Assembly (NCBI GenBank): GCA_027459505.1
Contig: DAIDIE010000016.1
Span: forward strand, 62,001-126,000
DNA length: 64,000 nucleotides
Reading direction: 5' to 3'
Origin: Acidobacteriota bacterium
Lineage (GTDB): Bacteria > Acidobacteriota > Terriglobia > Terriglobales > SCQP01
The notes under the pieces are model-generated. The model was not told the DNA's origin. It worked only from the letters and a program-made list of their open reading frames with translations, and searched no databases. Both the position numbers and the translations under genes were made by a program. This document shows, in pieces, positions 3,289-23,333 of this stretch. How positions within the stretch are numbered: position 1 is the first letter of the stretch; every line of letters begins with the position of its first letter.

Positions 3289-3340
3289 TCCCGGCCAGAA
3301 CAGCAGTCGGTCGGCCCTGAGGCCAGCATAAGCGCAAGCC

Positions 3341-3470
3341 TATAATGGAGGCTTGGCCGGGGTTGATCCCGGCCGGGCCATTCCTTTCCCTGGCGTGCGA
3401 ACATCGGGAAAGGGGTGGCCTCCGCCCCGTACTCCTGCCGTCTTGAAGGGAAGCCGGGCAAAGGCCTTCC
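3341..3470 (+). promoter_or_regulatory. Perfect -10 box and structured 5' leader of kdsA
   Basis: TATAAT at 3341-3346 is a consensus -10, though no good -35 is seen. The ~118-nt leader can fold into GGCCGGG/CCCGGCC (3355-3361 with 3368-3374), CCTTTCCC/GGGAAAGG (3383-3390 with 3406-3413) and GGGGTGG/CCGCCCC (3412-3418 with 3422-3428). The second and third share bases 3412-3413, so they compete. A last GAAGG/CCTTC pairing reaches the bases just before the ATG and could hide the ribosome site. Regulation is inferred; it matches no riboswitch class I recognise. Confidence 0.45.
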
Positions 3471-4310
3471 ATGCCAAAACAGATTCGTCCTGTCCAAGCT
3501 GGCCCCTATCAAGTGGGTCCCGGCCATCCCTGGCTTCTGATTGCCGGCCCTTGTGTCATTGAGAGCGAGGAGCACGCGCTGATGCTGGCGCGCAGCCTGG
3601 CCGCGCAGGCCGCCGAGGCTGGCGCCAATTACGTCTTCAAAGCGTCCTTTGACAAGGCCAATCGCAGTTCCGTGAGCTCCTACCGCGGTCCCGGCTTAAC
3701 GGAAGGATTGCGCATCCTGCGCCGCGTCCGTGATGAGGCCGGCGTGCCCGTGCTGACCGATATCCATGAGCCCGCGCAGGCCGGACCGGTTGGGGAGGTC
3801 TGCGATATCGTGCAAATCCCCGCCTTCCTATGCCGCCAGACCGATTTGCTGCTGGAGGCGGGGCGCCATGCGCGCTGCGTCAACGTCAAGAAGGGGCAAT
3901 TCCTTGCTCCTCTGGACATGCGAAACGTGGTCGAAAAGATTCACAGTACCGGTAACGCCAACCTGCTGCTTACCGAGCGCGGCTCCTCGTTTGGCTACAA
4001 CAATCTGGTTGTGGACATGCGAGCCCTGCCGCTTATGCGTAGTTTGGGCGTGCCGGTCATCTTCGATGCCACGCACAGCGTGCAGCTTCCTGGCGCGCAG
4101 GGCAACGCCAGTGGGGGCCAGCCGCAGTTCATTCCTGGCTTGGCCCGCGCCGCCATGGCAATGGGCGTTGATGGCATCTTTTTTGAGGTGCACGAGAATC
4201 CCGCCGCCGCGCTCTCTGATGGCGCCAACGCGCTACGCCTGGATGGGGTTCCCCAGTTGCTTCGTGCGCTGCAGAGTATTCGCGCAGTGCTGACAGCGGA
4301 GGCGCAATGA
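3471..4310 (+). CDS. kdsA: 3-deoxy-8-phosphooctulonate synthase (KDO-8-P synthase)
   Basis: 279 residues, the usual length for KdsA. It condenses phosphoenolpyruvate with arabinose-5-phosphate to give KDO-8-phosphate, the precursor of the inner-core sugar of lipopolysaccharide. Recognised by LIAGPCVIESEEHA, the substrate segment FKASFDKANRSSVSSYRGPG, LTDIHEPAQ, CRQTDLLLEAGR, VNVKKGQFLAP and FDATHSVQLPG near the C-terminus. The C-R-Q-T segment without the metal-type Cys at the equivalent N-terminal site does not by itself settle metal dependence. The stop overlaps the kdsB start by 4 bp (ATGA), so the two KDO genes are translationally coupled. Cytoplasmic. Confidence 0.97.
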   Translation: MPKQIRPVQAGPYQVGPGHPWLLIAGPCVIESEEHALMLARSLAAQAAEAGANYVFKASFDKANRSSVSSYRGPGLTEGLRILRRVRDEAGVPVLTDIHEPAQAGPVGEVCDIVQIPAFLCRQTDLLLEAGRHARCVNVKKGQFLAPLDMRNVVEKIHSTGNANLLLTERGSSFGYNNLVVDMRALPLMRSLGVPVIFDATHSVQLPGAQGNASGGQPQFIPGLARAAMAMGVDGIFFEVHENPAAALSDGANALRLDGVPQLLRALQSIRAVLTAEAQ

Positions 4311-5059
4311 AGGCAACCGGAAATGTTCTCGGCGTCATCCCCGCGCGGCTGGCTTCCACCCGGCTGCCCCGCAAGCCTCTGGCTCTCATCGCCGGTAAAC
4401 CCATGGTGGTGCGCGTCTATGAAGGAGCGCGCGCCTGTCAGGGATTGAGAGAACTCGTGGTTGCCACCGACGCGGAGGAGATTCGATCCGTCTGCGCTGA
4501 GGCTGGTATTCCCGCCGTACTCACCTCTTCCGCGCACGTTTCAGGGACTGACCGGGTTCATGAGGCGATGCAGGCGTTTCCCTGGGCGGAGGCGATTGTG
4601 AATATCCAGGGTGACGAGCCAATGGTCCGCGGCGCAATGATTGACGCGCTGCTCGGCGCTTTGTTCTCTGACGAAGCGCGTCAGGTGGCGACTTTGAGCA
4701 CGGCGCTTGAATCGACCGATATTCATGACCCGTCAGTGGTCAAAGTCGTCGCGGCGCGCACAGGCGAGGCACTTTATTTTTCCCGTGCCGCCATTCCCTT
4801 TGCCCGTGCAGGCCAGCCGCGGTATCAAAAACACCTGGGCTACTACGCATACTCGCGTGCCGCGCTGGAGCGCTTCCACCACCTCCCGCCCTCCATGCTG
4901 GAAGCGGCTGAAATGCTGGAGCAGTTGCGCCTTCTGGAAAACGGCATTGGAATTGGGGTGGTCAGCGTGCCGTTCGACACCATCGCGGTGGACACGTCCG
5001 CTGACCTGGAAAGGGTGGAAGCCGCTCTGCGGAAACAGAGCACCGCGCCGGGAATATAA
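4307..5059 (+). CDS. kdsB: 3-deoxy-manno-octulosonate cytidylyltransferase (CMP-KDO synthetase)
   Basis: 250 residues. It activates KDO with CTP to CMP-KDO, the donor for lipid A glycosylation. The N-terminal nucleotide-binding motif is VIPARLASTRLPRKPLALIAGKP, followed by VVATDAEEI, the metal-binding VNIQGDEPMV, YFSRAAIPFAR and the conserved end region VDTSADLERVE. It begins within the kdsA stop codon (ATGA overlap). A GC-rich hairpin follows 3 nt after the stop. No kdsC phosphatase or kdsD isomerase is next to it; those must lie elsewhere. Confidence 0.97.
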   Translation: MKATGNVLGVIPARLASTRLPRKPLALIAGKPMVVRVYEGARACQGLRELVVATDAEEIRSVCAEAGIPAVLTSSAHVSGTDRVHEAMQAFPWAEAIVNIQGDEPMVRGAMIDALLGALFSDEARQVATLSTALESTDIHDPSVVKVVAARTGEALYFSRAAIPFARAGQPRYQKHLGYYAYSRAALERFHHLPPSMLEAAEMLEQLRLLENGIGIGVVSVPFDTIAVDTSADLERVEAALRKQSTAPGI

Positions 5060-8646: not shown

Positions 8647-10146
8647 CTAGTGGCGGACTACCTTCGGTATTCCCTCGGCTGGGAACGTTCCCAAGATCTG
8701 CCCTCGCTCATTGAGGATCACCACTGGCGCCGGACTGAACTGGGTCAACGCCGCTTGGATCCGGGCCGCGTCTCCCACGACGATGATCGCCGCATGCGCC
8801 GGATGCATGTACTTTTGCGCCGCCGCACGCGCCTGCGCGGCCGTGACGCTTTGCACCCGCTGCACAAACCCGGAGAGATAACGCTCTCCCAGACTCTGCT
8901 CGGTGATCAACAAAAACTCGTCGGCGATTTCGCCCTGAGCCTGCAGGTTGCGCACAAAGCTTCCACTCAAATAGTTCTTCGCCTGGCGTAGAGCGTCGGC
9001 GGAAATCGGAGCGGAACGGAATTGCCGCAGCTGTTGCAGCGCGGCTGCGATCGCAGGGCCGGTGACCGCGTTGCGAACCTGCATCTCCACCAGCCAGGAG
9101 CCCCGCTTTAGCAAGGGCCGGTTGACGCTGTACACCCCGTAGGTATAGCCCAGCTTTTCACGCAGGTTCTCCATCAGCAGCGAGTTCATGCTGCCGCCCA
9201 GCACCTGGTTGGCCACCAGTAAGGGGAAGTAGTCGGGATTTTTGCGGGTCACACCCAGGTTGCCAATCACAATGGTCGCCTGCGCCGATCCAGGCCGGTT
9301 GACCAGATACACGCGCCTGGCCGCACTGCGCGGCAGTGCGCCTGTTTGGGGTGCGGGGGGTGAGCCAAACCGCCAATCACGGAAGTACTGATCGGCGAGT
9401 CCCCGTGCCTCGCCCCGGCTGATGTCGCCCACAACGATCAGCATCGCGTCATTGTTCGGAAGCAGCAATTGCTGGTGCAAGTCGATCAACTGTTGCCGCG
9501 TAATGGAGCGAATCGAGGACTCGGTGGGGGCGATCCAGGAGTAAGGATCGGAACCGTAGACCGCCTTGGCGAACTGCTGGGCTGCGAGGAACCCGGAAGA
9601 ACTGCGCCGCAGCGCCAATTCCTGCAGCATGTTCTGCTTGCGAAGCGCCACTTCGCCGGCGGGAAAAACCGGGTTCAAAACCACATCGGCCAGCAGGCGA
9701 AAGATGGCGTCTTTGTGGCTGGCAAGCCCTCCGGTACTGACGGAAAGGAAATCCGGTCCCGCCGCTCCCTGGATCGAGCCGCCGAACAGTGCCGCAGAGG
9801 CGGCAATCTGTTCCGCGCTGAACCCGCGCGTGCCCGAGGTCAGCAGGTGGGCCTCCGCCTGCAGCAGTCCAATCTCGCTGGGTTTGACCATCCGCCGCCC
9901 AGCTTTGACGGCGAAGCGCAGGCTGATCATTGGGAAGCGGTGATCCGAAACCACCACCAGCTTCAGACCATTGGGCAATTGGTCGGTGAACATCCGCGGG
10001 GGTTCATAGGAGGGCATGGGTCCTATGGACGGCGGCGCCTGCTGCGCGGAAATTGCGCCAGGGCTGGTTTGCGCGCCGCTTGGAAACCAAGCAATCAGCG
10101 CTGAAAACAGCGCCGTGGCCAAAACCGTTGCGCGGGTCGTTTTCAC
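8647..10146 (-). CDS. M16 family peptidase-like protein, catalytic motif lost
   Basis: 499 residues with an N-terminal signal peptide (hydrophobic stretch to about residue 25, then SGAQ). It has the two-lobed M16 (pitrilysin/processing-peptidase) fold signals: PNGLKLVVVSDHRFPMISLRFAVKAG near the N-terminus and a NYLSGSFVRNLQAQGEIAD region in the second half. The zinc motif HxxEH is missing; the aligned segment reads LLQAEAHLL, so it is probably the non-catalytic subunit. The GTG start overlaps the stop of the upstream HxxEH-bearing gene by 4 bp, which fits a two-subunit periplasmic or membrane-associated protease. Substrate unknown. Confidence 0.85.
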   Translation of the reverse strand: MKTTRATVLATALFSALIAWFPSGAQTSPGAISAQQAPPSIGPMPSYEPPRMFTDQLPNGLKLVVVSDHRFPMISLRFAVKAGRRMVKPSEIGLLQAEAHLLTSGTRGFSAEQIAASAALFGGSIQGAAGPDFLSVSTGGLASHKDAIFRLLADVVLNPVFPAGEVALRKQNMLQELALRRSSSGFLAAQQFAKAVYGSDPYSWIAPTESSIRSITRQQLIDLHQQLLLPNNDAMLIVVGDISRGEARGLADQYFRDWRFGSPPAPQTGALPRSAARRVYLVNRPGSAQATIVIGNLGVTRKNPDYFPLLVANQVLGGSMNSLLMENLREKLGYTYGVYSVNRPLLKRGSWLVEMQVRNAVTGPAIAAALQQLRQFRSAPISADALRQAKNYLSGSFVRNLQAQGEIADEFLLITEQSLGERYLSGFVQRVQSVTAAQARAAAQKYMHPAHAAIIVVGDAARIQAALTQFSPAPVVILNERGQILGTFPAEGIPKVVRH

Positions 10147-11525
10147 TGCTTGCCCCCATTCTGCTCTGGCTGGTCCAACACTTCCGCCACCAGTTTCGGG
10201 TCGAGGTATTTCGCCGCCGCGCGCTGCACGTCCGCCATGGTGACTTCGTTAATGCGCGCAAGAAAACGATTGGCGGCGGCCGGAGAATGGTCAACCAGGG
10301 CCGCAGTCGCGAGCATCTGCGCCCGTCCCAGTGTCGTTTCCTCGTTGCGGATCCAATCCGCCGCGATTTGCGCTCTGGCCATGCTCATTTCCGAACGTGA
10401 GGGCCCGTCATCGCCGATCTGCTGAATCTCAGCGAGGACCAGGTGCTTAATCCGTTCCGCGCTGCCGCCCTGCTTGTAAATGATTGAGCTGCCAAAAATT
10501 CCGGGTGAGCGGTAATCGGTGTAGTCGGCGGTCGGAAACCCGAGCCCGCCATCCACTGAAATAGCCAGTTTGTCGCGTTTGACCAGCAATTGATAAAGCC
10601 GGGAGCTCTTGCCGTTAAACAACAGCTCGCCCAGCAGCGTCATCGCATAAAAATCCTGCGAGTGCCGCTTGGGCCCTTGCCAGCTCAGCGCGATCTCCGG
10701 CAAATGCGCCTGCTTGTCCTGCAGCAGCAGCGGGGGTTGTGGCCGCACTTTCGGCTCTTTGGTGGAAACCTTGTTGGGGGCTGGAGCGCGGTTGGGAATC
10801 GCTCCGAAATAATGTTCCACCATCGCCTGCGCCGTGGCGGGTTTGAAATCACCGGCAATGACCAAAATGATGTTCCGCGGGGCGTAGTAAGTCCTGAAGA
10901 ACGCCTGGACTTCACTCAGCGTGGCCGCGTTCAGATCATGGAACGAGCCTATTACCGAATGCGCGTTATGCCAGTTGCGGAAGGTCGCGCGTGGAATGCC
11001 GGCGTAGAGAACAGCCCCGTAGGGAGCGTTGTCCACCCGGTAGCGCTTTTCCTCTTCCACGACCGCCACCTGGTTGTTCATATTTTTTTGTGTGACGTTC
11101 AGGTGCGCCAGCCGGTCCGAATCCAACCACATCAGGATGGGTAAGGCATTGCTCGGCATGGTTTCAAAGTAGAAGGTGTAGTCAACGTCGGTCTGCGCGT
11201 TATCTGTTCCCCCGTAGCCCTCCACCAGCCGGTCAAAAACACCCTTGGGGGCGTGCAGCGAGCCTTCAAACATGAGGTGCTCAAATAAATGAGCGAAACC
11301 GGCGTGGCCGGGCTGTTCGTCCCGGCTGCCCACCTTCACCATCATGGCTTCGGTCACCACCGGAACGGAATGATCCGGCGCGAGAATGACCTGCATGCCG
11401 TTTCCCAATTTGAAGGTCGTAAACGATACTGAAGCGTTGAGCGTTTGCTGCGCTTGCGCGCACGGCACACAAACGAGGGCCGCCAGCAGCAGTCCCAGGG
11501 ACAGACGGGCTTTGAGGACAAGCAT
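10143..11525 (-). CDS. M16 family zinc peptidase, catalytic subunit
   Basis: 460 residues. A signal peptide (MLVLKARLSLGLLLAALV, cleavage near AQA) directs export. The inverted zinc motif HLFEH is at residues 79-83 and a downstream glutamate cluster EEEKR at ~157-160 supplies the third ligand, as in insulinase/pitrilysin-like peptidases. The second lobe contains a NIILVIAGDF strand and a C-terminal KYLDPKLVAEVLDQPEQN segment. The open frame runs further upstream antisense to the maltokinase gene; the ATG at 11525 directly precedes the signal peptide and is preferred. It is coupled to the inactive partner through a GTGA overlap. The pair is divergent from the maltokinase gene with 108 bp between them. 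Confidence 0.9.
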   Translation of the reverse strand: MLVLKARLSLGLLLAALVCVPCAQAQQTLNASVSFTTFKLGNGMQVILAPDHSVPVVTEAMMVKVGSRDEQPGHAGFAHLFEHLMFEGSLHAPKGVFDRLVEGYGGTDNAQTDVDYTFYFETMPSNALPILMWLDSDRLAHLNVTQKNMNNQVAVVEEEKRYRVDNAPYGAVLYAGIPRATFRNWHNAHSVIGSFHDLNAATLSEVQAFFRTYYAPRNIILVIAGDFKPATAQAMVEHYFGAIPNRAPAPNKVSTKEPKVRPQPPLLLQDKQAHLPEIALSWQGPKRHSQDFYAMTLLGELLFNGKSSRLYQLLVKRDKLAISVDGGLGFPTADYTDYRSPGIFGSSIIYKQGGSAERIKHLVLAEIQQIGDDGPSRSEMSMARAQIAADWIRNEETTLGRAQMLATAALVDHSPAAANRFLARINEVTMADVQRAAAKYLDPKLVAEVLDQPEQNGGKQ

Positions 11526-11633
11526 AGAATCACCAAGGGCGTGAAGCGGCTTCCGATGTTCGGGGCAGCCGCAACGCAGCCGCGGAACCAACAGGGTGGC
11601 ACTGATTGTCATCCTATACCACACAGGGTTGAC

Positions 11634-13187
11634 ATGACATCCACCAGCTACCCCAACTACAAGCCCATTCAATTGGCGGCGCTGACGGAGTGGCGCTCTG
11701 CGGAAGTGCGCACCAACCTGCGCGCGTGGATTCCACGGCTGGCGCCCGCCTATCTGCCGTGGCAGCGTTGGTTTGCCAGCAAAGGACGAGCCATTGCCCA
11801 GGCGATGTTGCTGGATGCCATGCAGTTGGAGTTCAACGCCAGCGAGGCGGTGTGGGTCTGCCTGATCGAAGTGGAGTTGGAGCGTGGGGGCAAGGAGACC
11901 TATCTGCTTCCGCTGGTTCTCAGCCGTTCCGCGGAGCGTTCCGCCGAGGAGCGGGTGATCGCCAATCTGGGGCCCTCCAGCGCCGGCGAGCAGTTGCGGC
12001 TTCTGGATGGCGTTGCGGAAGCCAGCTTCCGCTCCCGGTGGCTGCAACTGCTGCTCAGCGATACAACCCTGACCGGCAAGTATGGTCAGCTTCGTTTCCA
12101 TACCGGTTCCGGCGCCGCCGACCGCCTGCCCGTGGTCGCGCATAGCCGCGTAGGCTCGGCCGAGCAGAGCAATAGCTCTCTGCAGTACTTCTCCGCGCCA
12201 GGTAATCCCCCGGCGATGTTGGCGAAATGTTTCCGCAAGCTCATGCCAGGTTTGAATCCCGATGTTGAGGTTACAGGTTTTCTTTCCCAGGCGGGCTTTC
12301 GTAATGTCCCCTGGCTGGCCGCCTGGGCCGAATATGCGACGCCGCTGGAGCGCTACACGCTTTCGGTGCTGCAACCCTTCGTGCCGAACGACGGTGACGG
12401 CTGGGAGTACATGCTGCGCCGTTTGGCCGTGATTTCCAGTATTCCCGATCTTGATGAGGAGATTGCCAGCCTTGCACAGCGCACTGCGGAAATGCACGCT
12501 TTGCTCGCCACCGGAGATGAGGCCGACTTCGTCCCCCAGCCCGTCTCGCCACGCGACATTCAGGAGTGGTCGCATTCCGTGCCGCTGCAGGCGCGGCAGT
12601 TTGCGGATGAATTGCGAAATTCCGGCCTGCCGTCCGGCATTTCCGCCATAGCGCAGCGCGTGGCGCCACTGTTGGAGCGGCTGGAATCGCTGCCGGAGTG
12701 GCTGCGCGGCTTACAAAGCGGGACGCGGAAGATCCGCATTCACGGCGATTACCATCTCGGTCAGGTTCTGCGGGTGCCCGGTGATTTTGTCATTGTGGAT
12801 TTCGAGGGCGAACCCGCCCGGCCCTTGGAGTTTCGCCGCCGCAAGCACAGCGTTCTCAAAGACGTGGCTGGAATGCTGCGCTCCTTCGACTATGCCGCCA
12901 ACGCGGCTCTGTTGGCGTTGCCCGAGGAGCAGCGCGCCGGGCGTGCCGGTCTGCTGCTGGGCTGGCGTGATCATGCGAGCGCATTTTACTGGAACGAATA
13001 TCAGCGTGCCCTTGCCGGGGCCAATCGCAACCACGTTCCACTCTTGCCGCAAAGCCCCGGCGAGTGCGCACGCGCTCTCGACTTTTTCGTTCTGGAAAAG
13101 GCCGTCTACGAACTCGGCTATGAACTCCACAATCGCCCTGGGTGGTTGTCGATTCCGCTGCAGGGACTGTTGCGTCTGCTGGGCTGA
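11634..13187 (+). CDS. mak: Maltokinase (aminoglycoside-phosphotransferase fold)
   Basis: 517 residues. It phosphorylates maltose to maltose-1-phosphate with ATP, the donor used by GlgE to build alpha-1,4-glucan. The N-terminal part has PRLAPAYLPWQRWFASKGRAI, typical of maltokinases. The kinase core has IHGDYHLGQVL (369-379) with the catalytic Asp at 372, followed by VIVDFEGEPARPLEFRRRKHSVLKDVAGMLRS, whose DFEGEP takes the metal-binding role. The ATG at 11634 is preceded by AGGG; the frame is open upstream but has no maltokinase character there. It is not fused to treS, unlike many homologues. A GlgM-like gene at 42.2 kb belongs to the same pathway. Confidence 0.9.
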   Translation: MTSTSYPNYKPIQLAALTEWRSAEVRTNLRAWIPRLAPAYLPWQRWFASKGRAIAQAMLLDAMQLEFNASEAVWVCLIEVELERGGKETYLLPLVLSRSAERSAEERVIANLGPSSAGEQLRLLDGVAEASFRSRWLQLLLSDTTLTGKYGQLRFHTGSGAADRLPVVAHSRVGSAEQSNSSLQYFSAPGNPPAMLAKCFRKLMPGLNPDVEVTGFLSQAGFRNVPWLAAWAEYATPLERYTLSVLQPFVPNDGDGWEYMLRRLAVISSIPDLDEEIASLAQRTAEMHALLATGDEADFVPQPVSPRDIQEWSHSVPLQARQFADELRNSGLPSGISAIAQRVAPLLERLESLPEWLRGLQSGTRKIRIHGDYHLGQVLRVPGDFVIVDFEGEPARPLEFRRRKHSVLKDVAGMLRSFDYAANAALLALPEEQRAGRAGLLLGWRDHASAFYWNEYQRALAGANRNHVPLLPQSPGECARALDFFVLEKAVYELGYELHNRPGWLSIPLQGLLRLLG

Positions 13188-13226: not shown

Positions 13227-13877
13227 TCATTGCCGCAACGTGAAGGCCTTGCCAGCCGTGTCCGCCTCAGGGTGGCTGCATAACCGCAGGGCCCCGGCGT
13301 GCTGGCAGTAATGCAAGCGGCAAACGGTGCAGCAAAAAGCGCGCGGTGGCCGTGGCTGCAGCCGTTTGCCGCAGCGGCACACCCATCCCACGCAGCGCGC
13401 AGGGCAACCCGCCATCAGGGAATGTCCGGGAGCATCGTGGGTCAGCACCGCGCCTGCCGCGATGAGCGCGAATGGTCCCACTTCATGCCCGCACAAAATG
13501 GTACTGTTGGCGCCAATCGTGGCGCCCCGCCCAATGCCGGTTGGCAGGAGCGCTTCGCTCTCGCGCCTTAAGAACGCGCGCGGCGACAGATCATTGGTGA
13601 AAACCGCGTTGGGGCCAACGAAGACATCATCGGCGATGCGCACGCCGCGCCAGATGCTTACGCCATTCTTGATGGTTACGCCGTGGCCGATCTCCACCTC
13701 ATCTTCCAAAAAGCAGTGATCGCCGATATTGCACCCACATCCCACGCGCACGCCGGGTCGCAGATGAGCAAAGGCCCAGATGCGGGTACCCGATCCGATA
13801 TGCGGCGTTTCGACCAGCGCCTGGGGATGGATATACGGCGGCACCGCGACACTTACGGTGTGCTCCTCAGGGTTCAT
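13227..13877 (-). CDS. Left-handed beta-helix N-acetyltransferase (WbpD/WlbB-like)
   Basis: 216 residues. The first ~160 are hexapeptide repeats (IGSGTRIWAFAHLRPGVRVG, IGDHCFLEDEVEIGHGVTI, IGANSTILCGHEVG) typical of acetyl-CoA-dependent sugar acyltransferases acting on UDP-3-amino sugars. The C-terminal tail is Cys-rich (CRCGK...FCCTVC...CQH), a possible zinc ribbon. The ATG at 13877 has GGGAGG five to six bases upstream, and it overlaps the Gfo/Idh gene by 11 bp. The pair recalls WbpB/WbpD of diacetamido-uronate synthesis, but the aminotransferase of that pathway is not next to it. The role in polysaccharide precursor synthesis is inferred. Confidence 0.8.
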   Translation of the reverse strand: MNPEEHTVSVAVPPYIHPQALVETPHIGSGTRIWAFAHLRPGVRVGCGCNIGDHCFLEDEVEIGHGVTIKNGVSIWRGVRIADDVFVGPNAVFTNDLSPRAFLRRESEALLPTGIGRGATIGANSTILCGHEVGPFALIAAGAVLTHDAPGHSLMAGCPARCVGWVCRCGKRLQPRPPRAFCCTVCRLHYCQHAGALRLCSHPEADTAGKAFTLRQ

Positions 13878-14943
13878 TTGCACCTCCCGCCCCCACCGAC
13901 TTGAAATGCGGAGACTGGGTGATCTCCAGCGGCGCCGCCAGGACGGGCTTCATTGGCGAGCAGTTCTGCTCCCACGAGCGCTGCAGCCTTTCGAGCGTCT
14001 CGACCACCGAAATTCCAAAGGTCGCGTCGGAGCGCAGCGCCGTTCCCCCCCGAACCGCATTGATGAAATCACGCAATTCCAATTCCAGCGGTTCGCCCCG
14101 CTCCAGTACCGGGCTGGAGGCGTGAAAGCCACCCAGGCTGGGGTGGAAACGCTGCGCGTCAACGATGTTGGGGTACGCCGGATAAAAACGGAGTCTTTCC
14201 AGCGCCTGCGTGTCGTCCAGCACTGCTGTCGCGCGCGAAGCGCTGACTTGAATGCGCCGTGTTTTGACCGGAGCTGCCCAGCTTACTTCGACGTTGGCGA
14301 TTACCCCTGCGCCGAACTGCATCATGATGAAGGCGATGACCGGCACCGTTCCCGACCCTCCGGTATTGCCGTAGACGTAGACATGCGATGGGGTCTGCTG
14401 GAACCAATACTGCAGGATCGAGATGTCATGCACCGCCAGATCCCAGAGCACTCCCCAGGGCTGCAGGCGCGTGTCCCGGTTGAGCCGCTGCGAGCTGACT
14501 GCGCGTACCGTTCCCAGCACGCCCCGCTGTAACGCCGAGCGCAACGCCACCACCGCGGGGTTGTAGACGAAAGTGTGCCCAACGCCGAGTACGGCGCCCT
14601 TCTTCTGCGACAGTTCCCGCAACTCGCGCCCCTGTTCGCTTGCCAGACAGAGAGGCTTTTCCACTAACACATGCACGCCCTGTTCCAGTGCGCAACGTGC
14701 CAGTGCGTAGTGCGAGTCAATCGGCGTTGCCAGCACCAGGGCCTCGGCGCCGCTCTGCTGGAGCGCTTCCGGGACTCCGCAGTACGCCGGGACGTCCGGA
14801 TGCGCCCGCCGTAACCGCTGCCTTGCATGCGGCAACGGGTCGCAACAGGCCACCAGCTCTACTTCCTCGATTTCGCGTAGGGAGCGCACAATCATCGGTC
14901 CCCAGTACCCGTAACCCGCTACCGCCACTCGTGTTGCTTTCAT
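13867..14943 (-). CDS. Gfo/Idh/MocA family oxidoreductase (WbpB/WlbA-like)
   Basis: 358 residues. NAD(P)-dependent sugar or sugar-nucleotide oxidoreductase. The N-terminal Rossmann fold carries VAVAGYGYWGPMIVRSL, then ATPIDSHYALA, the catalytic-lysine signature VLVEKPLC and GVGHTFVYNPAV. The segment WDLAVHDISILQYW holds the conserved active-site His. In this setting the likely reaction is oxidation at C3 of a UDP-hexuronate or related sugar. The ATG at 14943 was preferred over an in-frame GTG 15 bp upstream because the fold begins immediately. It overlaps the acyltransferase gene and lies 67 bp downstream of the glycosyltransferase fusion. Confidence 0.85.
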   Translation of the reverse strand: MKATRVAVAGYGYWGPMIVRSLREIEEVELVACCDPLPHARQRLRRAHPDVPAYCGVPEALQQSGAEALVLATPIDSHYALARCALEQGVHVLVEKPLCLASEQGRELRELSQKKGAVLGVGHTFVYNPAVVALRSALQRGVLGTVRAVSSQRLNRDTRLQPWGVLWDLAVHDISILQYWFQQTPSHVYVYGNTGGSGTVPVIAFIMMQFGAGVIANVEVSWAAPVKTRRIQVSASRATAVLDDTQALERLRFYPAYPNIVDAQRFHPSLGGFHASSPVLERGEPLELELRDFINAVRGGTALRSDATFGISVVETLERLQRSWEQNCSPMKPVLAAPLEITQSPHFKSVGAGGANEP

Positions 14944-15010
14944 GCCCAGTTCCCCCACTCATCGTCTGAGGCGCCGGCCGCCGGCGATCAAGACACCTTA
15001 TGCAACGGCC

Positions 15011-16825
15011 CTAGTAATTTCCCGCCGCTCGCAACGCGTAATCCTCTTCAGGGGCCTTGACCGCATTCCTGGTGGTTCGTTCGCTGAATTCACCGGGTAC
15101 CAGCCCCCGCGCCGTGATCGAGCCGGTCACGAAGCGCCATGCCGTTTTCAACAAAATGTGAGCGTCCAGGCGCACACTCTGCGTTTGCAGGTAGCGCAAA
15201 TCCAGTTCCGTCTTCCGGGGTGTGCCCTCAGTGTCGCAGTAGCCCAATTCCAACTGAGCCAGTCCGGTGAGCCCAGGTCGCGCTGCGAAGCGCCGTGTGT
15301 AGCCGGGAATCTGCTGCGAAAAAAGGCGCGTGAACTCCGGCCGTTCCGGACGCGGTCCCACCAGGGTCATATCTCCGCGCAGTACATTCCACAACTGCGG
15401 CAGTTCGTCCCATCGCGTTTTGCGGAGGGCCGCCCCCAGCCGGGTCACGCGCTCGTCGCCGGCTACGGCAAAGCGCGGACCGCCCTGCTCGGCGTCTTCC
15501 ACCATGGTGCGCAGTTTCCACATCCGGAACCGCAGTCCATCCTTGCCGGTACGCCACTGCTGGTACAGTGGCGCGCCTGAACTCTCACCGAGGATCGCCA
15601 GCAGCAGCACGGCCAGCAATGGGGAGAGCAACAGCAGGCCGGCCGAGGAGAGTGCAATATCAAGGACTCGTTTCCCGCGCGCCCCTTTTGGCTTGGCCAT
15701 CGGTGGCATTCCGCTTTCGTTGCCACCGCTCCTGAAGAATACCGTCTGCCACCTCGCCGGTTCCCTGACTAGCTGTTCAGCGCACCGCAGGACCACGGCC
15801 GGGGCAATGCTCTTGAGACAGTCGCCGGTTGAGCAGCAGTAAGCGCTGCCGCGCAGACCCGCACTGGGGGAATAGCAGGGGCCGCAACCGGCGTAACCCT
15901 GGATGGCGAAGCCTCGGGTCCGCGGTGGATGCACCAGACGCGCCGAGGTGGGGCCGTAAAGCGCAATCACGGGAACACCGCGCGCGCTGGCCAGGTACAA
16001 CGGCAAGGAGTCGTTGGTGATCAGCAACTCCGCTCGCGAAATCAAAGCTGCGCTTTCTCGGATGCTGTGGCGTCGAGCTGTGTTCTCCGCCATCGTACCG
16101 GTCTGGCGGATAATCTCGCTACATTCGCTATCGTTCGCTCCTCCCACCAGAGCGACGACAGCGCCTTGCTGGGAGAGCGATCGCACGAGATCGACAAAGG
16201 AACTCACTGGCCAGCGGCGCGTCGGCATGCGTGACCAGCAGTTGGCGCCGCCGCCTGGCGCAACGACGATGCGGCGGCCGCTCAGTGGGGCCTGGGGTGT
16301 GCGCTCATGAGTGCTGCTGAGCCTCTCCCAGTACTCTTCCGCGGGCCTGAGCTCCTCGCCGGTAAGCTCTAGCCGCAGATCGTCAGGAAAGGAAAGAATT
16401 CCGATGGTCTGCAGCAGTGACCGCACTCGTGCGGCGCGTGAAACGCTTTCGTTCCAGGCCGTGCCCTGGGTGATAAAACGATCACCCCAGCTACCGCGGA
16501 AGCCCACGATGCTGTGCATTCCCGCCAACCGCGCCAACAGCGCGAGCGCGCCGCGCCGATGCAGCAAAATGAGGGTGGAGCGCCGCTGGCGACGCAACGC
16601 GCGCCATAAATCCCACAATCCCCCAATTCCCTGGGGCCGCACGCCCCAAACCTGCTGCGCATCCGGGTTACCCCTCAGCAGCGGCGCGCACTGATGGCTG
16701 GTAATCACGCCGACCTTGCCACCGCTTTGCCGCAACGCGCGCAATACCGGCGTCGCGGCCAGCACGTCTCCCATGGCGCCCAGTTTCAGCACGGTATAAG
16801 CCTTTGGCTGAGATGCGGTGTTCAT
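15011..16825 (-). CDS. Fusion of GT9 heptosyltransferase-like and polyprenyl-phosphate sugar-phosphate transferase domains
   Basis: 604 residues in one uninterrupted frame. Residues 1-350 resemble ADP-heptose:LPS heptosyltransferases (GT9): KLGAMGDVLAATPVLRAL, VVAPGGGANCWSRMPTRRWP and ITNDSLPLYLASARGVPVIALYGPTS. Residues ~375-565 are a bacterial sugar transferase (PF02397 type): KRVLDIALSSAGLLLLSPLL membrane helix, then FRMWKLRTMVEDAE, KTRWDELPQLWNVLRGDMTLVGPRP and RPGLTGLAQ. Such transferases start repeat-unit synthesis by loading a sugar phosphate onto undecaprenyl phosphate; the GT9 part would add a heptose-like sugar. The gene overlaps the upstream Wzy-like gene by 4 bp (ATGA). This domain pair is unusual. 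An internal ATG lies just before the second domain. Confidence 0.85.
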   Translation of the reverse strand: MNTASQPKAYTVLKLGAMGDVLAATPVLRALRQSGGKVGVITSHQCAPLLRGNPDAQQVWGVRPQGIGGLWDLWRALRRQRRSTLILLHRRGALALLARLAGMHSIVGFRGSWGDRFITQGTAWNESVSRAARVRSLLQTIGILSFPDDLRLELTGEELRPAEEYWERLSSTHERTPQAPLSGRRIVVAPGGGANCWSRMPTRRWPVSSFVDLVRSLSQQGAVVALVGGANDSECSEIIRQTGTMAENTARRHSIRESAALISRAELLITNDSLPLYLASARGVPVIALYGPTSARLVHPPRTRGFAIQGYAGCGPCYSPSAGLRGSAYCCSTGDCLKSIAPAVVLRCAEQLVREPARWQTVFFRSGGNESGMPPMAKPKGARGKRVLDIALSSAGLLLLSPLLAVLLLAILGESSGAPLYQQWRTGKDGLRFRMWKLRTMVEDAEQGGPRFAVAGDERVTRLGAALRKTRWDELPQLWNVLRGDMTLVGPRPERPEFTRLFSQQIPGYTRRFAARPGLTGLAQLELGYCDTEGTPRKTELDLRYLQTQSVRLDAHILLKTAWRFVTGSITARGLVPGEFSERTTRNAVKAPEEDYALRAAGNY

Positions 16826-18426
16826 GCGCGAACCTCCCTGGCGGAATCCCTGGCCAGCGCCATGGATTCAATTGCGCCCAGCAGCGCCAAAGTGATGCCA
16901 AGAATGCGCGCGTTGAGCAGAACCTCGTTCGTCAGCGACGCAGCGAACAACGCCGCCAGCGCCGCCAGCGCAGCTTCCGTCAGTCTCCTGTGCAGTGAGA
17001 GCAGGTTCATCTGCGACCGGTGTTCCGGTGGGAGTGGAAAGCCGCCGGCGGCAAGCGCGCTCTCAGCGCGAAGTTGGTGGCGCCGCAAGCGCCAGAACTG
17101 CACGGCGATAGCCCCCCAGCACAACACAAAAAACGAACACCCCACAACGCCCGTTTCGGCCAGACTGGTCAGCGCACTGTTCTGCGCTCCACCAAAGCGC
17201 AGGCTTCGTCTGCGCCGGAGGAGCGCCTGAGTGGGAAACTCAACCCCCGCCAGCGAGGGCAGTCCCACGTAAAGTGCATGGCCAAATCCTAGGCCCCCGA
17301 AGCGCGCGTGCCGGAACTGCTGCCAGGCATCCTGCATGCTCTGAAAGCGTTCCGCGGTGCCGGCATCTTTCGCGGTACCGCCCGCAACAATGGTGCGCGT
17401 GGCCAGAACCGCCGCACGCACACGATTCGCCACCCGTCCCGGGAACAGCAGCGCCAGCGTTACCCCTCCTGCCACGGCCAGGAGCAATGCGGTGCGGTGT
17501 GACAGTGCGGCAAGCGTGCTCAGCCCCACCAGTAACCCCAGAAACGCTGCCCGTGAGGCACTCCAGGCAATTGCCGCCAGCACGGCGACGGCGGTGGCTG
17601 CTAGCATCGCCTGGCCAAAATGCCGCTGTTGCGCCTCGCCGGATGCCATTACTTGGTGGCTCGCTGCGTCCCTTGCCCCGGCCGCTCGCCAACCGCTCAC
17701 AGCCAGCAGCGGCATCAGCGTCGCGGCCGCGAGCGTGCCGAAGAGGTTGGGATCAAACAACAAGCCGCTGGCGCGTGGAATGTTGCCCATCTCGGCGAGG
17801 GAGCTGAACGCTTTTAGTCCTCCCCGGCACTGCAGCAGGGCTACTACCGCGTTGAGCAATAACCCCGCGGTCAGAAGGCGTAGCATCGGCCGCGCTCCCA
17901 TCGTCGCCATCCAGCCCGCCAACCACACAAAGCCCAGCAACTTGAGCCAGTGAAAGCCGATCGTTATCAACTGCAACCGGCTGAGTTGAGCCTGCAAAAA
18001 GACGGGTGTTAATGAGAGCGGGAGCACCAGAAAAAGGCAGAACACAGCGCGGCTGCACCATGGCAGTTCGCGGCGCCGTCGCCAGATGTCTCCCAGCACC
18101 AGGGGAATGGCCAGCAGCGGCAGCAAGAAGTTGCTCAGCGTGAGTCCGTGCGACCAGAGGAGAGGCAGGCCAAAGCTCCTGCGCGAATCCATGTCGGGTA
18201 CTGCCCAAAAGGCGGCGAACAATAGCGCCGGGCCCCAGCCCTCGATTCCCGCCCGCAAGAGCAGAAGAAACGTCAGAAGGATCGGCGGCACAAACGCCAG
18301 CGGCGTGCGCGAGAGAAGTGCTGCTGCCAGCCACATCACCAGCAGGCTAACGCATGCCAGAAGCCATACCCCAGCGCTGCGCTCGCTCTCCCCGGCCTGT
18401 TCCCGCCATGTATTTGGTTGCGACAC
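16822..18426 (-). CDS. O-antigen ligase/polymerase-like multispanning membrane protein (Wzy type)
   Basis: 534 residues with about ten or more hydrophobic helices, such as VWLLACVSLLVMWLAAALLS and LLLAVAGGVTLALLF, and a long hydrophilic loop around RFQSMQDAWQQFRHARFGGLGFGHALYVG, the usual layout of O-antigen ligase/polymerase proteins (PF04932). Its likely job is polymerisation or transfer of the exopolysaccharide repeat in the inner membrane. The GTG at 18426 has GGAGG nine bases upstream and lies 13 bp after the GT4 stop, so it is preferred over starts inside the upstream gene. Wzy versus WaaL function cannot be told from sequence. Confidence 0.8.
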   Translation of the reverse strand: MSQPNTWREQAGESERSAGVWLLACVSLLVMWLAAALLSRTPLAFVPPILLTFLLLLRAGIEGWGPALLFAAFWAVPDMDSRRSFGLPLLWSHGLTLSNFLLPLLAIPLVLGDIWRRRRELPWCSRAVFCLFLVLPLSLTPVFLQAQLSRLQLITIGFHWLKLLGFVWLAGWMATMGARPMLRLLTAGLLLNAVVALLQCRGGLKAFSSLAEMGNIPRASGLLFDPNLFGTLAAATLMPLLAVSGWRAAGARDAASHQVMASGEAQQRHFGQAMLAATAVAVLAAIAWSASRAAFLGLLVGLSTLAALSHRTALLLAVAGGVTLALLFPGRVANRVRAAVLATRTIVAGGTAKDAGTAERFQSMQDAWQQFRHARFGGLGFGHALYVGLPSLAGVEFPTQALLRRRRSLRFGGAQNSALTSLAETGVVGCSFFVLCWGAIAVQFWRLRRHQLRAESALAAGGFPLPPEHRSQMNLLSLHRRLTEAALAALAALFAASLTNEVLLNARILGITLALLGAIESMALARDSAREVRA

Positions 18427-18439
18427 GGCTTTCCGCCTC

Positions 18440-19537
18440 CTATACCGCGGCCGCCAGGGAATCGTTGCTGACAGAGCCTTCGTACACCGCCATATGTGCA
18501 TCAACGGCGGCGTCCCACCGCAGGAGCGCCACGCGCCGTAATCCCGCCTCGCGGCGGCGACTTTGTTCGCGCACGTCCTGCAGGATTCCGAGCATGGCCT
18601 CCGCTAGCGCTGGCGCGCTGGCGTCACGCAGCAGAAGGGCCGCGCCTCCTCCGGCCTCGCGCAGCGCGGTGTTGTCGAACGCGATGACTGGTGTTCCGCA
18701 GGCCATCGCCTCGAGCATCGGTAAGCCCCAGCCGGCATAGGTTTCGGGAAACACAAAGACATCAGCGCCCGAGTACAGCGCCGGCATCCAGCCCTCCTCC
18801 ACGTATCCCAGCCGCAGCACTCGCCGCCCCAGTCCCAAGCGCTGAATTTCCGCCTTGACCGCCAGTCCATAGCTGGCCAGGTGCACCGGCCCGGCAAGCA
18901 CCAGTTCGTGCCGGCATACGCTTTCAATGCGCGCGAAGGCCCTTAGCAGTGTGATGACATCCTTTCGCGGCTCCAGCGCTCCCACGCAGAGGATGTATTG
19001 CCGGCCAACCCCGAGTGCCTTGCGCATTTGCGTCTGTTGCGCCGCGGTGGCTTGGCGGAAGTGTTCCCGCACCGGGTAATGAATGGTCCATAGCCTCTTG
19101 TGGCTGATGTCGAGAAGCTGGTGTGCCCGCTCCGCCGTGAAGTGGGAGGGAGTAATTACCGCGTCACAGTGCTTGGCCGTGCGAGGTAAATAGCTGGACC
19201 AGTACCAGCGCGATGTGTTGGACGCTAAGATCTCTTCGCGTTCCATCACGCTGAGGTCGTGCAGCGTCATCACTCTGCGTTTCTTTCCCCAGCGCGGCGC
19301 CGCGAATCCAGGCGTATGCAGCACGTCGATTTGCTCCCGCATCGCCGCCACCGGTAAACTCCACTGCTCGCGAATGACCTGGGCTGGCGTGGAAAGCCGC
19401 GAAGTGTTGCCGCAGGAGAAATAGACGTATTGGTTGCGCTGATCGTAGCGCTGCAACGCCGCCACCAAGCCCTGGGTATAGGCGCCCAGCCCCGAAACTG
19501 GCGGTAAAGTGCTTTGAACGTCAATCGCAATCAGCAT
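18440..19537 (-). CDS. Glycosyltransferase family 4 (mannosyltransferase-like)
   Basis: 365 residues with GT-B fold signals: N-terminal SGLGAYTQGLVAAL, TLHDLSVM, ITPSHFTAERA, ILCVGALEPRKDVITLLRAF, and the donor-binding ETYAGWGLPMLEAMACGTPVIAFD (the E-x7-E pattern of retaining GT4 enzymes). It probably adds a hexose during repeat-unit assembly on the inner membrane; the sugar is unknown. The ATG at 19537 has GGGGG about six bases upstream and precedes the first strand LIAIDVQST. It overlaps the preceding GT2 gene by 17 bp. Confidence 0.88.
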   Translation of the reverse strand: MLIAIDVQSTLPPVSGLGAYTQGLVAALQRYDQRNQYVYFSCGNTSRLSTPAQVIREQWSLPVAAMREQIDVLHTPGFAAPRWGKKRRVMTLHDLSVMEREEILASNTSRWYWSSYLPRTAKHCDAVITPSHFTAERAHQLLDISHKRLWTIHYPVREHFRQATAAQQTQMRKALGVGRQYILCVGALEPRKDVITLLRAFARIESVCRHELVLAGPVHLASYGLAVKAEIQRLGLGRRVLRLGYVEEGWMPALYSGADVFVFPETYAGWGLPMLEAMACGTPVIAFDNTALREAGGGAALLLRDASAPALAEAMLGILQDVREQSRRREAGLRRVALLRWDAAVDAHMAVYEGSVSNDSLAAAV

Positions 19538-20603
19538 CGGCGCCCCCTTCATGAGTGGCGGGTCGTGCCGCCTGCCCTTCTTTCCAAACCGCTGCTGAAC
19601 TCCGTGGCCGCCAGAACGCCTTTCTCCAGGAAACGTTGCCCCATCGCCGGCCGGGCGTCTCGCAAGTCTCGGCTGCTGCGATGCTCCGCCGTTCCAACTC
19701 CCGCAGCTTGAGGTGACGGACAATTTCGTAAACAAAGCCTAGAAAGGCGTATTCGAGGCCGGCGGCGCCATCCAGAAACGCCCCCTGCAGCACCACGCGC
19801 TTGGTTAACCTGCCTATGGCCAGTGACAACATCCGGCACACACTGAAACGTATGCCGCGCTGCCGCATCCCCTCGCTCTCTAACGTCGTGTAGCGGTCAA
19901 ATTTATGGAAGTACGCCGAGAGATCGGGATAGCTCAGGTGCAGTAACGGCGCGCTGAGATGGCCGGTTGCCCCCTTAAGCAGCAGCTTGGAGTGCACGGG
20001 CGTCTCGTCAAATCGGCCGCGCTCTCTTCTGAATAGCCGCGGCACGTTGTAATCGGGGTAGTTGCCGCCATGGCGAAGCCAGTGTCCGAACACGATATTC
20101 CGGCGAGGCAAAAAGTAGCCGGCTTGGCCGGGCGCGGCTATCGCCTCGCGTATCTGCTCTGCCGCTTCTGGCGTCAGGCGTTCGTCGGCGTCGATGAGCA
20201 ATACCCATGCGCCGTTGGCGTGCTGAATGCCGAAGTTCATCTGCCGCGCAAAGCCGTCAAATTCCCGGCGGAAGACCCTGGCGCCGTGGCGCAGGCAGAT
20301 CTCCACCGTGCGATCAACGCTGCATCCGTCCACCACCACCAGTTCGTCAGCCAGGCCCTGAACGCTGCGCAGGCATTCGGCGACGCGGGCCTCTTCGTTT
20401 TGCGCGATCACCACCGCTGAAAGCCGTGCGGGCGCCACTTGCGTCTCGACTTCACCGGCCTCGCAACGGCCCACGCCAGCCAGCGTCTGCTCCGGCGCCG
20501 GCGCTTGCGCGAGCGCCGCAACCGGGGCTGCCCCGTTCCGTAGTGTGGCTGCGCCGGCACGAGCAACAGCCGTACTGCTCAAGTCTTGATTGACTAAAAC
20601 CAC
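19521..20603 (-). CDS. Glycosyltransferase family 2 (LPS core WaaE/KdtX-like)
   Basis: 360 residues. After a ~55-residue low-complexity N-terminus comes a GT-A domain: LSAVVIAQNEEARVAECLRS, ELVVVDGCSVDRTVEI, LIDADERLTPE (the DxD-like metal site), then YNVPRLFRRERGRFDETPVH, characteristic of the WaaE/KdtX group that adds glucose or a related sugar to LPS core or polysaccharide. A C-terminal hydrophobic segment (GAAGLEYAFLGFVYEIVRHLK) suggests membrane association. GTG start with GGAG at 7-nt spacing; overlaps the Wzz-like gene by 10 bp. Confidence 0.88.
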   Translation of the reverse strand: MVLVNQDLSSTAVARAGAATLRNGAAPVAALAQAPAPEQTLAGVGRCEAGEVETQVAPARLSAVVIAQNEEARVAECLRSVQGLADELVVVDGCSVDRTVEICLRHGARVFRREFDGFARQMNFGIQHANGAWVLLIDADERLTPEAAEQIREAIAAPGQAGYFLPRRNIVFGHWLRHGGNYPDYNVPRLFRRERGRFDETPVHSKLLLKGATGHLSAPLLHLSYPDLSAYFHKFDRYTTLESEGMRQRGIRFSVCRMLSLAIGRLTKRVVLQGAFLDGAAGLEYAFLGFVYEIVRHLKLRELERRSIAAAETCETPGRRWGNVSWRKAFWRPRSSAAVWKEGQAARPATHEGGADADCD

Positions 20604-21964
20604 GCCCGTTCTCCAACAGCTGCGCGAGGTGGTTGATTCGCGGGCTGTGCGTCATTGTGCGCAGAGCGCAGTGCGGCCAGCAGCAGCCCAATTGCGCCGC
20701 CCAGGGCCATGCAGAACAACCCGTCTTGCCGGGGTTTGGGCCACGCAACTTCTCCGGGCGGGGTCGCCCGCCGCACCTGCACCGCACCGCTCTCCGGCAG
20801 CGCCATCAGAGTCGAGAGCTCCTGCTCGTGCCGCAGCAGATTCCGCAACACCTGTTCATGGGCGGCTGCCTGATCTTGAAGAAGCTGCAGCCGCGCTCTG
20901 CGTTCCGCGGCGGCGCTTATGATCCGGGGCTGGCCAAGCAGTGCCGATTGCAGAGCGGCGACTTCAAGCGTTTGCCGCCGCGCTCCCGCCTGCTGCTGCT
21001 GGCGCCGCTCGCGCTCGGTAAGTTCGATACTGTGCTGCAGGCTTGTGAGTCTTTGCCGCGCCTGCGCCAGGGGCAACGCGCGCGGCGCGTATTGCCGCGC
21101 CAGAGCCGCCGTTTGCGCGCGCACATCCGCTGCCGCTCCGCGCATGGAAGAGAGTGAGCGCTCCTCCGGGCGGTCGCCCTCGTAGCCGCTGGCCAGGTTG
21201 GCTTGCCGCTTCCAATATTCAATCTCGGCCGCGGTCTTGGCCGTCTGCAACTGTTGCCAACTTTCCTCGGCCGCCGTCATCGGCAGAGCCGGATTGCTCC
21301 GCAGAAAACGGGTCACCTGCTCCTGGGCGCGCGCATAGGCGCCCACTTGCACTCCCACTTCGCTTTGCAGCGTCGCCAGACTGGCGCGCATTTGCCGTTG
21401 CTGCTGTTGATGGCGCCAGCGTTGGTAATTGGCGATGATCAAATTGGGAATCGCGGCGCAGATCCGCGCGTCGGTGTTGTCGAAGGTCACCGTGATCAGG
21501 TGTGTTGCGGGCTGGTGCATCACCTGCACCGAGCCCTGCCAGCGGCGCGTGAGCTCGCCGGCAACCGCTGGCGACCACTGCCGCGCCCCCGCTTGCCTGA
21601 GCGCGATCGTGCGCAGCCCCTCTGGCAACTGCAGCACCGACGCACGCAGCAGCTCCGGATTGCGTAGCAGTCCCTCAGTGGTTGCCACCGCCTCGGAATC
21701 CACCGCGCTTGCCGGACGCACCGGATGCAGATCGCTCCACGCCGCGGCGCTTTGTAGCAGCATGGTGGCTTGTGCCCGGTAGTGCCCAGGTTCCCACAGC
21801 GCCCAAACTAGTCCTGCCGCTCCCCCAACGCAGGCGCACACGGTGATCAACAGCCATTGCCGCCGGCAAATGGCCGCCACCGCCGCGATGGGTTCGAACA
21901 AGCTGGCACGATTCTGCGTCGGGCGCTGCGGAGCAAAACCGAATTGAAGTTGCGGGCTGGCCAT
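20594..21964 (-). CDS. Wzz/GumC-like polysaccharide chain-length determinant
   Basis: 456 residues. A membrane helix near residues 36-55 (WLLITVCACVGGAAGLVWAL), a large Gln/Arg/Ala-rich periplasmic region with long coiled-coil helices, and a second helix near the C-terminus (GLFCMALGGAIGLLLAAL) preceded by a Pro-rich patch, the architecture of Wzz/PCP-2 proteins. No cytoplasmic tyrosine-kinase (BY-kinase) domain is fused and none is seen nearby. It would work with the Wza-like outer-membrane protein to control chain length and export. Overlaps the GT2 gene by 10 bp and follows the Wza-like gene by 38 bp. Confidence 0.85.
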   Translation of the reverse strand: MASPQLQFGFAPQRPTQNRASLFEPIAAVAAICRRQWLLITVCACVGGAAGLVWALWEPGHYRAQATMLLQSAAAWSDLHPVRPASAVDSEAVATTEGLLRNPELLRASVLQLPEGLRTIALRQAGARQWSPAVAGELTRRWQGSVQVMHQPATHLITVTFDNTDARICAAIPNLIIANYQRWRHQQQQRQMRASLATLQSEVGVQVGAYARAQEQVTRFLRSNPALPMTAAEESWQQLQTAKTAAEIEYWKRQANLASGYEGDRPEERSLSSMRGAAADVRAQTAALARQYAPRALPLAQARQRLTSLQHSIELTERERRQQQQAGARRQTLEVAALQSALLGQPRIISAAAERRARLQLLQDQAAAHEQVLRNLLRHEQELSTLMALPESGAVQVRRATPPGEVAWPKPRQDGLFCMALGGAIGLLLAALRSAHNDAQPANQPPRAAVGERAWF

Positions 21965-22002: not shown

Positions 22003-22974
22003 TTAGTGAAAAACGATCAGACCGGTGACTATGGCGCTCCCCGTCGCCAGCGCGGTTTCTGCGCCGTGCAGCAGCACCTTGCGCCCCGTACTTTCTGGAA
22101 CGAGCAGCAGGTCGCCCGCCCGCAGCCGGGTGTTTGTAGCCGGTCCGCTGGGCGGAGTTTCGAGTGCAATAAGGCTGGTCAGCATTTGCCCTGCACCGTT
22201 CCGGCGCACCAGCACCGCGGTCGACTGCGCCCGGCCGCTACGCAAGCCGCCGGCGAGAGTGATCGCCTGGTAGACATTGAGAGGATTTGCGTTCAGGGCG
22301 TACCGCCCCGGTTTGCGCACCGCACCTCCGACGTAAACCTCGCCTCCCCGGAATACCTCAACCAGATCGTTGCCGCGCAGTTGCGGGCCGCTGCTGCCCG
22401 GCTGCTGCAGCGCGCGCAAGTCGTACCAGTCACTTCCTTCCGCCTTGCCGTGGTGGATATGTGTGACCAGCACCTGGCCGCTGCAGTGCGGGGTGGTGCC
22501 TCCCGCGCGCGCCAGGATTTGCAGCAGGGTGGTATGAGCGCCGGCGGGATAGGTCCCAGGACGGTTCACCGCCCCCAGGACGCTGACCAGGGGAATCGCC
22601 GCCCGCAGCACCAGAATCTGCACCTGGGGCGCCAGCAGATAATCTCGCAGCGCACCGGCCACCCGCCGCTGTGCCTCCCCAATCGTTAGCCCGGCTATCG
22701 GGATCCTGCCGGCTTCGGGCAGCGTGATCGCCCCACGGCGGTTCACCTGGACCTTGCCGGAAAGCTCCGGGGTGGCGAAAACGCTGACCTGCAACAGGTC
22801 GCCGGCATGGATAGGGTCTCCCGCGTAAACTCCATCGGCCGGGCGCCTCTGCGACGGGCTTTGCCCGCAGGCGGAGGCCAGCAGCAATGCGGCCGTAAAG
22901 AACTGCCGAACTATCCGGGGCTGAGATGGTGAAACGCGCCGTTGAAGATCCCGCCGTTGTGCCAAGCCAGTCAT
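22003..22974 (-). CDS. Wza-like polysaccharide export protein
   Basis: 323 residues. It has an N-terminal export signal ending at LLLASACGQSP, possibly a lipobox although position -3 is Ala. The export (PES) domain follows: DPIHAGDLLQVSVFATPELSGKVQVNRRGAITLPEAGRIPIAGLT, then two SLBB-type domains (VSVLGAVNRPGTYPAG and VYVGGAVRKPGRYALNANPLN). It forms the outer-membrane exit channel for exopolysaccharide. A C-terminal hydrophobic helix (LATGSAIVTGLIVF) fits insertion in the membrane. ATG at 22974 chosen, with GGGG upstream. It is the first gene of the minus-strand cluster. Confidence 0.88.
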   Translation of the reverse strand: MTGLAQRRDLQRRVSPSQPRIVRQFFTAALLLASACGQSPSQRRPADGVYAGDPIHAGDLLQVSVFATPELSGKVQVNRRGAITLPEAGRIPIAGLTIGEAQRRVAGALRDYLLAPQVQILVLRAAIPLVSVLGAVNRPGTYPAGAHTTLLQILARAGGTTPHCSGQVLVTHIHHGKAEGSDWYDLRALQQPGSSGPQLRGNDLVEVFRGGEVYVGGAVRKPGRYALNANPLNVYQAITLAGGLRSGRAQSTAVLVRRNGAGQMLTSLIALETPPSGPATNTRLRAGDLLLVPESTGRKVLLHGAETALATGSAIVTGLIVFH

Positions 22975-23333
22975 AATGCCGCCCCTTTTGGGTAGCCCCA
23001 TCTCAGCGCAAACCGCCAGCCCTGACAATCGCCCAAATAGGTGGGGTCGATGGCAGTCAGTTGTTGAAAGTGAGCTAAAGAGCCCGAATTTATTGGCTTT
23101 GGAAAATCGCAGGCGCCTGGCGTGCACCCCGCGGCACTCCCTCCAATTGGGTGGGGTGAGCAGGTCACGGGCCGAGCCGCGGGTCACCGCCCAGCCTGAG
23201 GGGACGGCACACATGCATGTTTACCCGCGCCCCCCACGGTCACTGCTGGGCGGCGCTGGCCGCGCGCCCCGGCTGTTTGTTATGCTCGCCACAGCGTTAC
23301 GTTCGCTACGTTCCAGTACCGTCGTTGATCGCT
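22975..23333. other. 359-bp divergent intergenic region upstream of the polysaccharide cluster
   Basis: It lies between the Wza-like gene (-) and the TIM-barrel gene (+) and should contain the main promoter of the cluster. AT-rich stretches on the minus strand around 23060-23110 could hold it, but I see no convincing -35/-10 pair. I found no match to the c-di-GMP riboswitch consensus. Confidence 0.3.

Follow-up and report, generated by a model that had tools for sequence, protein, structure and literature searches.

The GT9 glycosyltransferase family is known mainly for the addition of heptose to the lipopolysaccharide core. In bifunctional phosphoglycosyl transferases (PGTs), the joined partners are usually members of one pathway, and O'Toole et al. 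2021 reportedly placed glycosyl transferases among three common fusion partners of the monotopic PGTs (monoPGTs). The bifunctional monoPGTs (Bi-PGTs) form a named class in which the monoPGT core bears a functional domain at its N- or its C-terminus (PMC10942596), and sugar-modifying and regulatory domains have been noted for small monoPGTs (PMC12802240). In Brucella, the WadA protein comprises a cytoplasmic glycosyltransferase domain fused to an O-antigen ligase that acts in the periplasm (PMC9938171).

This study examined a gene on the minus strand of a 64,000-nucleotide stretch of acidobacterial DNA, which is referred to as the window at its whole length. The gene (window 15011-16825) is one uninterrupted frame of 604 aa, with its ATG at 16825 and a TAG that ends at 15011; in the genome, an assembly of 4.06 Mb in 45 contigs, it corresponds to C34:77014-78825. 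An earlier sequence-only reading of this DNA had given the coordinates exactly and left the strand unstated. It had described a GT9-like GT-B domain and a monotopic initiating transferase as parts of one continuous frame, and the Pfam families PF01075 and PF02397 were indeed found in one open frame. This two-domain architecture is far beyond chance. The features of the gene are as follows.

15011..16825, minus strand: fused gene of 604 aa, consisting of a GT9 domain, a linker and a monotopic PGT (open frame, two Pfam domains, continuous codon-position GC)
15767..16825, minus strand: GT9-type GT-B domain, aa 1-353, with the Pfam core at aa 71-317 (PF01075, TIGR02195, 3tov and 1psw)
15677..15766, minus strand: linker, aa 354-383 (about 30 residues), between the domain matches; in the codon listing it has in-frame ATGs at 15709 (M373) and 15700 (M376), both with a weak Shine-Dalgarno
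15122..15676, minus strand: small monotopic PGT catalytic domain, aa 384-568, with SP at 401-402 and Asp-Glu at 473-474 (PF02397, PglC 8g1n/8e37; P402, D473 and E474 invariant in the profile alignment)
15011..15121, minus strand: C-terminal tail, aa 569-604, and stop codon, without a family match
16832..16839, minus strand: Shine-Dalgarno AGGGAGGT, 6 nt before the fusion ATG (-11.0 kcal/mol to the anti-SD)

For the C-terminal part, hmmscan aligned aa 385-566 with model positions 1-178 of 179 of Bac_transf (PF02397; E 1.9e-57), and the score of 194.1 bits greatly exceeds the cut-off of 27; this identifies a monotopic PGT. In a phmmer comparison with PDB sequences, this part matched PglC and WbaP, and the alignment with PglC (PDB 8g1n and 8e37) covered aa 385-567 with an E-value of 1.3e-22. 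Both DELPQ, which contains D473-E474, and SP at 401-402 aligned with PglC; we take the former pair to be the catalytic Asp-Glu dyad and the latter to be the Ser-Pro break of the re-entrant helix. The PGT signature (P402, K437, R439, D473-E474 and PRP at 491-493) was invariant in a four-row profile. With its motifs intact (SP 401-402, D473-E474 and PRP 491-493), this half of the protein is expected to transfer a sugar-1-phosphate to undecaprenyl phosphate. The Pfam scan revealed no match to CoA_binding_3 (PF13727) in the 604-aa protein, and the same kind of scan found this domain in two large PGTs of relatives (loci L056 and L057). The fusion therefore has a GT9 domain ahead of a PGT core of the small type and is not a large monoPGT of the WbaP/WcaJ type. 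Because a second functional domain (GT9, aa 71-317) resides on the PGT core (aa 385-566) in one polypeptide, the protein falls within the Bi-PGTs. No third family was found in the 604 aa at E-values up to 0.001 (hmmscan, Pfam). An AlphaFold2 model of the fusion, predicted from the single sequence with no alignment, had a mean pLDDT of 34.8, too low for placing the domains.

The N-terminal part belongs to the GT9 family, as Glyco_transf_9 (PF01075) matched aa 71-317 with an E-value of 2.5e-19 and a score of 70 bits, well over the cut-off of 22 (hmmscan). The NCBIfam model TIGR02195 aligned aa 18-353 to its positions 10-338 of 339, and phmmer against PDB sequences identified 3tov (E 4.1e-16) and 1psw (E 3.3e-14), the latter being ADP-heptose LPS heptosyltransferase II. 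Nevertheless, all the NCBIfam equivalog cut-offs for LPS heptosyltransferases were missed: II with 77.3 of 134.6 bits, III with 75.5 of 170.2 bits and I with 43.7 of 185.3 bits. Since these scores fall well below the cut-offs, the plain label of heptosyltransferase is not supported for this part, which the sequence-only reading had called heptosyltransferase-like. The Gly-Asp near the N-terminus (G19, D20) is kept and was invariant in the four-row profile; the donor motif reads NDSLPLYLA in the fusion, compared with NDSGPMHVG in 3tov and NDSGLMHVA in 1psw. Four cysteines (C314, C317, C331 and C336), in the motif CGPCY...RG.AY.C....C, were also invariant in the four-row alignment, and the same motif occurs in loci L051, L053 and L054. 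This motif of the GT9 subfamily (aa 314-336) is a possible structural or metal site.

The fusion is located within a set of genes on the same strand, with Wzy, GT4, GT2, a Wzz-like protein and an SLBB exporter upstream, and an oxidoreductase and a hexapeptide acyltransferase downstream.

22003..23214, minus strand: Poly_export / SLBB outer-membrane export protein, Wza-like (PF02563, PF22461, PF10531)
20594..21964, minus strand: probable Wzz-like chain-length protein, as suggested by its position, which is that in L051, and by its sequence character
19521..20603, minus strand: GT2-type glycosyltransferase (PF00535)
18440..19735, minus strand: GT4-type glycosyltransferase, ORF as listed (PF13692/PF00534); the true start is probably further in, with an in-frame ATG at 19537 that has an SD
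16822..18504, minus strand: Wzy_C / O-antigen ligase-type polymerase ORF, the stop of which overlaps the fusion ATG by 4 bp (PF04932, E 5.6e-10)
13867..14958, minus strand: Gfo/Idh/MocA oxidoreductase (PF01408); the nearest described function is UDP-GlcNAc 3-dehydrogenase, at 133.8 of 450 bits for NF040723, far under the cut-off
13227..13883, minus strand: hexapeptide-repeat acyltransferase (PF00132)

The Wzy frame as listed is over-long at its 5' end: the GT4 stop at 18440 lies within AGGAGG and is followed by an in-frame GTG at 18426, which is probably the true Wzy start. The Wzz-like protein (20594-21964) matched no Pfam or NCBIfam model; it has 456 aa in the window, compared with 722 aa for its L051 counterpart. 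The oxidoreductase and the hexapeptide acyltransferase (13227-14958) suggest a 3-amino sugar, and none of the seven DegT-type aminotransferase matches (PF01041) in the whole genome was on contig C34. Further along the minus strand, at window 8647-12575, two adjoining ORFs resemble M16 peptidases; the larger seems over-extended at its 5' end and contains HLFEH, presumably the M16 zinc motif. The sequence-only reading had located the fusion inside a complete polysaccharide cluster. A polysaccharide gene cluster does surround it, but completeness is not shown, because none of the three Wzx-type Polysacc_synt matches (PF01943) in the whole genome, the family that the flippase search covered, was on contig C34; these matches sit on C8, C43 and C1.

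We compared the locus with those of relatives. In genome G003, from the same family and another genus, contig C175 (locus L051) has the order Wzz-like, GT2, GT4, Wzy, GT9 and PGT, as in the window, and its GT9 (3886-5004) and PGT (3161-3889) are two genes with a 4-bp overlap; these two were matched by BLAST, and the names of the other L051 genes rest on their position and sequence rather than on a family scan. In G011 (L055), the GT9 stop is at 344-346 and the PGT ATG, a start chosen from the sequence, is at 339, giving an 8-bp overlap. Because GT9 and PGT are separate adjoining genes with 4- and 8-bp overlaps in these two family relatives, the fusion is most simply a merger of two overlapping operon neighbours in the window's lineage. 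In G004 (L053, 7737-8747) and G009 (L058, 1-564), the gene after GT9 is GT4-like and no PGT intervenes, indicating that the GT9 is independent of an adjoining PGT; a related PGT of G004 lies on a different contig (C1:527986-528630). In L051, a second GT9-like gene (1977-3158, minus strand) lies directly downstream of the separate PGT, which thus stands between two GT9-like genes.

On the basis of these findings, we consider, with a probability of roughly 0.6, that the gene is a genuine fusion of operon neighbours that produces a bifunctional membrane-bound enzyme, the GT9 domain of which would add a further sugar, most likely the second, to the lipid-linked product of the PGT domain. The PGT domain would load a sugar-1-phosphate onto undecaprenyl phosphate, and the fusion would tether the N-terminal GT-B domain at the membrane face, where it could add a further sugar, most likely the second, to the lipid-linked acceptor. 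The GT2 and GT4 enzymes would then lengthen the repeat unit, and Wzy, the Wzz-like protein and the SLBB exporter would polymerise and export the chain. We infer both activities, the order of the sugars and any channelling. It is plausible that one protein carries out two consecutive sugar steps, and channelling from the first sugar to the second may reasonably be proposed; a fusion of these two enzymes is most naturally read as a protein whose GT9 part adds a second sugar to what its PGT part has made. Counting against this reading are the restriction of the fusion to a single assembly, the GT9 genes of G004 and G009 that no PGT gene follows, and the departure of the donor motif from the two solved GT9 structures. 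A more specific version is tentative and, in our judgement, falls short of even odds: a first-seen monoPGT-GT9 enzyme, caught soon after two overlapping genes fused, in which the GT9 domain extends, by the second sugar, the undecaprenyl-diphosphate-linked sugar that the attached PGT domain has produced.

The main rival accepts a real fusion but assigns the GT9 domain to a later position in the repeat unit, so that joining only anchors the GT9 at the membrane and equalises the amounts of two operon enzymes. The 4 to 8 bp overlaps in the relatives imply that a fusion could arise by chance, without a functional link or order between its parts; moreover, the second GT9-like gene downstream of the PGT in G003 and the GT9 genes without an adjoining PGT in G004 and G009 are consistent with this explanation. 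Nothing direct counts against it, and the point on the other side is the usual membership of Bi-PGT partners in one pathway. We regard the later position as a somewhat unlikely explanation and retain the addition of the second sugar as the preferred reading.

Both of these explanations presuppose that the junction is genuine, and the in-frame GT9-PGT gene is probably a real gene fusion. The sequence-only reading had named two possibilities that would undo it, a frameshift joining two genes and translation from an internal ATG, and both seem unlikely. An assembly or sequencing indel could make two separate overlapping genes look fused: in the relatives the two genes lie in different frames and overlap slightly, one base would suffice, and the assembly, judged here from its assembled sequence, is a draft in 45 contigs. 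However, the GT9 homology continues in frame to about residue 353, beyond the stops of the alternative frames at codon positions 348.7 and 351.3, and a false-join indel must therefore sit after residue ~353. The next stops in the other two frames are at codon positions 387.7 and 453.3, with none between, and thus the GT9 gene would end at one of these positions, within the PGT core, an unusual overlap unlike those in both unfused relatives examined. Furthermore, the GC content by codon position is continuous across the junction, and the start signal that precedes the PGT of the relatives is missing from the fusion. The fusion ATG has the Shine-Dalgarno AGGGAGGT (-11.0 kcal/mol, spacing 6 nt), and the unfused PGT starts of two relatives have values of -6.8 and -10.2, whereas M373 (-5.1, spacing 12) and M376 (-3.5, spacing 8), which alone among the in-frame ATGs lie close to where the PGT begins, are within the background (1000 random same-strand positions; mean -3.1, 5% point -6.8, 1% point -10.8). 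These findings render the indel improbable. Still less probable is an additional or predominant synthesis of the PGT domain as a separate protein, with translation beginning at one of the internal ATGs (15709 or 15700); these two ATGs lie in frame just ahead of the PGT core, where a separate PGT would begin, but neither reaches the 5% point and the gene has no internal ribosome-binding site.

To determine how common the fusion is, we searched related genomes and other sequence collections. Among 14 genomes of the family, with all candidates scored, a match spanning both domains was found in one, the window's own. When the window protein was searched against 100 genomes, including its own, a match over residues 1-604 occurred only in its own genome among the matches listed. 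A profile (A2) was built from the window protein and three GT9-PGT pairs joined in silico; an alignment of separate GT9 and PGT fragments (A3) was rejected because GT9 rows had been placed on PGT columns, and the same fault was present in A1. With A2, a spanning match was found in 1 of 399 genomes of the class, among the matches listed, and in 1 of 396 genomes of the phylum, among the matches listed with E <= 1e-70, and both times this was the window's own genome. The class and phylum samples overlap, scoring took in the best three candidates of each genome, and the profile survey was confined to the phylum. None of the 1018 matching plasmid records and none of the 46 matching phage records had one place covering 80% of the query, and none of eight loci in the genome_contigs collection was spanning, all of them matching only within aa 332-579; these three scans are blind to fusions whose GT9 part is highly dissimilar or whose domains are arranged the other way round. 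The fusion is therefore known from one assembly, which is the sole genome of its genus among the relatives listed and in the 14 family genomes.

The available text of the literature searched, a scope that excludes the O'Toole et al. 2021 fusion survey, contained no description of a GT9-PGT fusion. GT9 may be new as a monoPGT partner, although bifunctional monoPGTs themselves are already established. The general picture of these pathways is unchanged, and the fusion is of an ordinary kind for enzymes. Its value lies in the hint that fused steps give about pathway order where the chemistry of a cluster is undefined. One would also expect from it that this GT9 subfamily and the PGT work jointly, an expectation that could extend to unfused pairs in related bacteria, and the fusion offers a single soluble-plus-monotopic protein for probing whether tethering aids the handover of the first lipid-linked sugar.

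Compared with known systems, the fusion resembles the Bi-PGTs in having a domain added to a monoPGT core and differs from them in that the partner is a GT9 domain. It shares the minimal PGT core with PglC (8g1n, 8e37), but PglC stands alone, whereas the core of the fusion is preceded by a GT-B domain. By sequence, its N-terminal part belongs to GT9 together with WaaF/RfaF and the other members of that family (1psw, 3tov); it differs in that it falls under all the NCBIfam heptosyltransferase cut-offs, has a changed donor-site motif and is joined to a PGT. Similar to WadA, it combines a glycosyltransferase with a membrane enzyme that takes part in assembling surface polysaccharides, although the WadA partner is not an initiating transferase. 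Further counterparts are the unfused pairs of G003 (L051) and G011 (L055), which encode homologous enzymes in an identical order and, in G003, lie in the same gene cluster too; in contrast to the fusion, each pair comprises two genes that overlap and have separate start signals.
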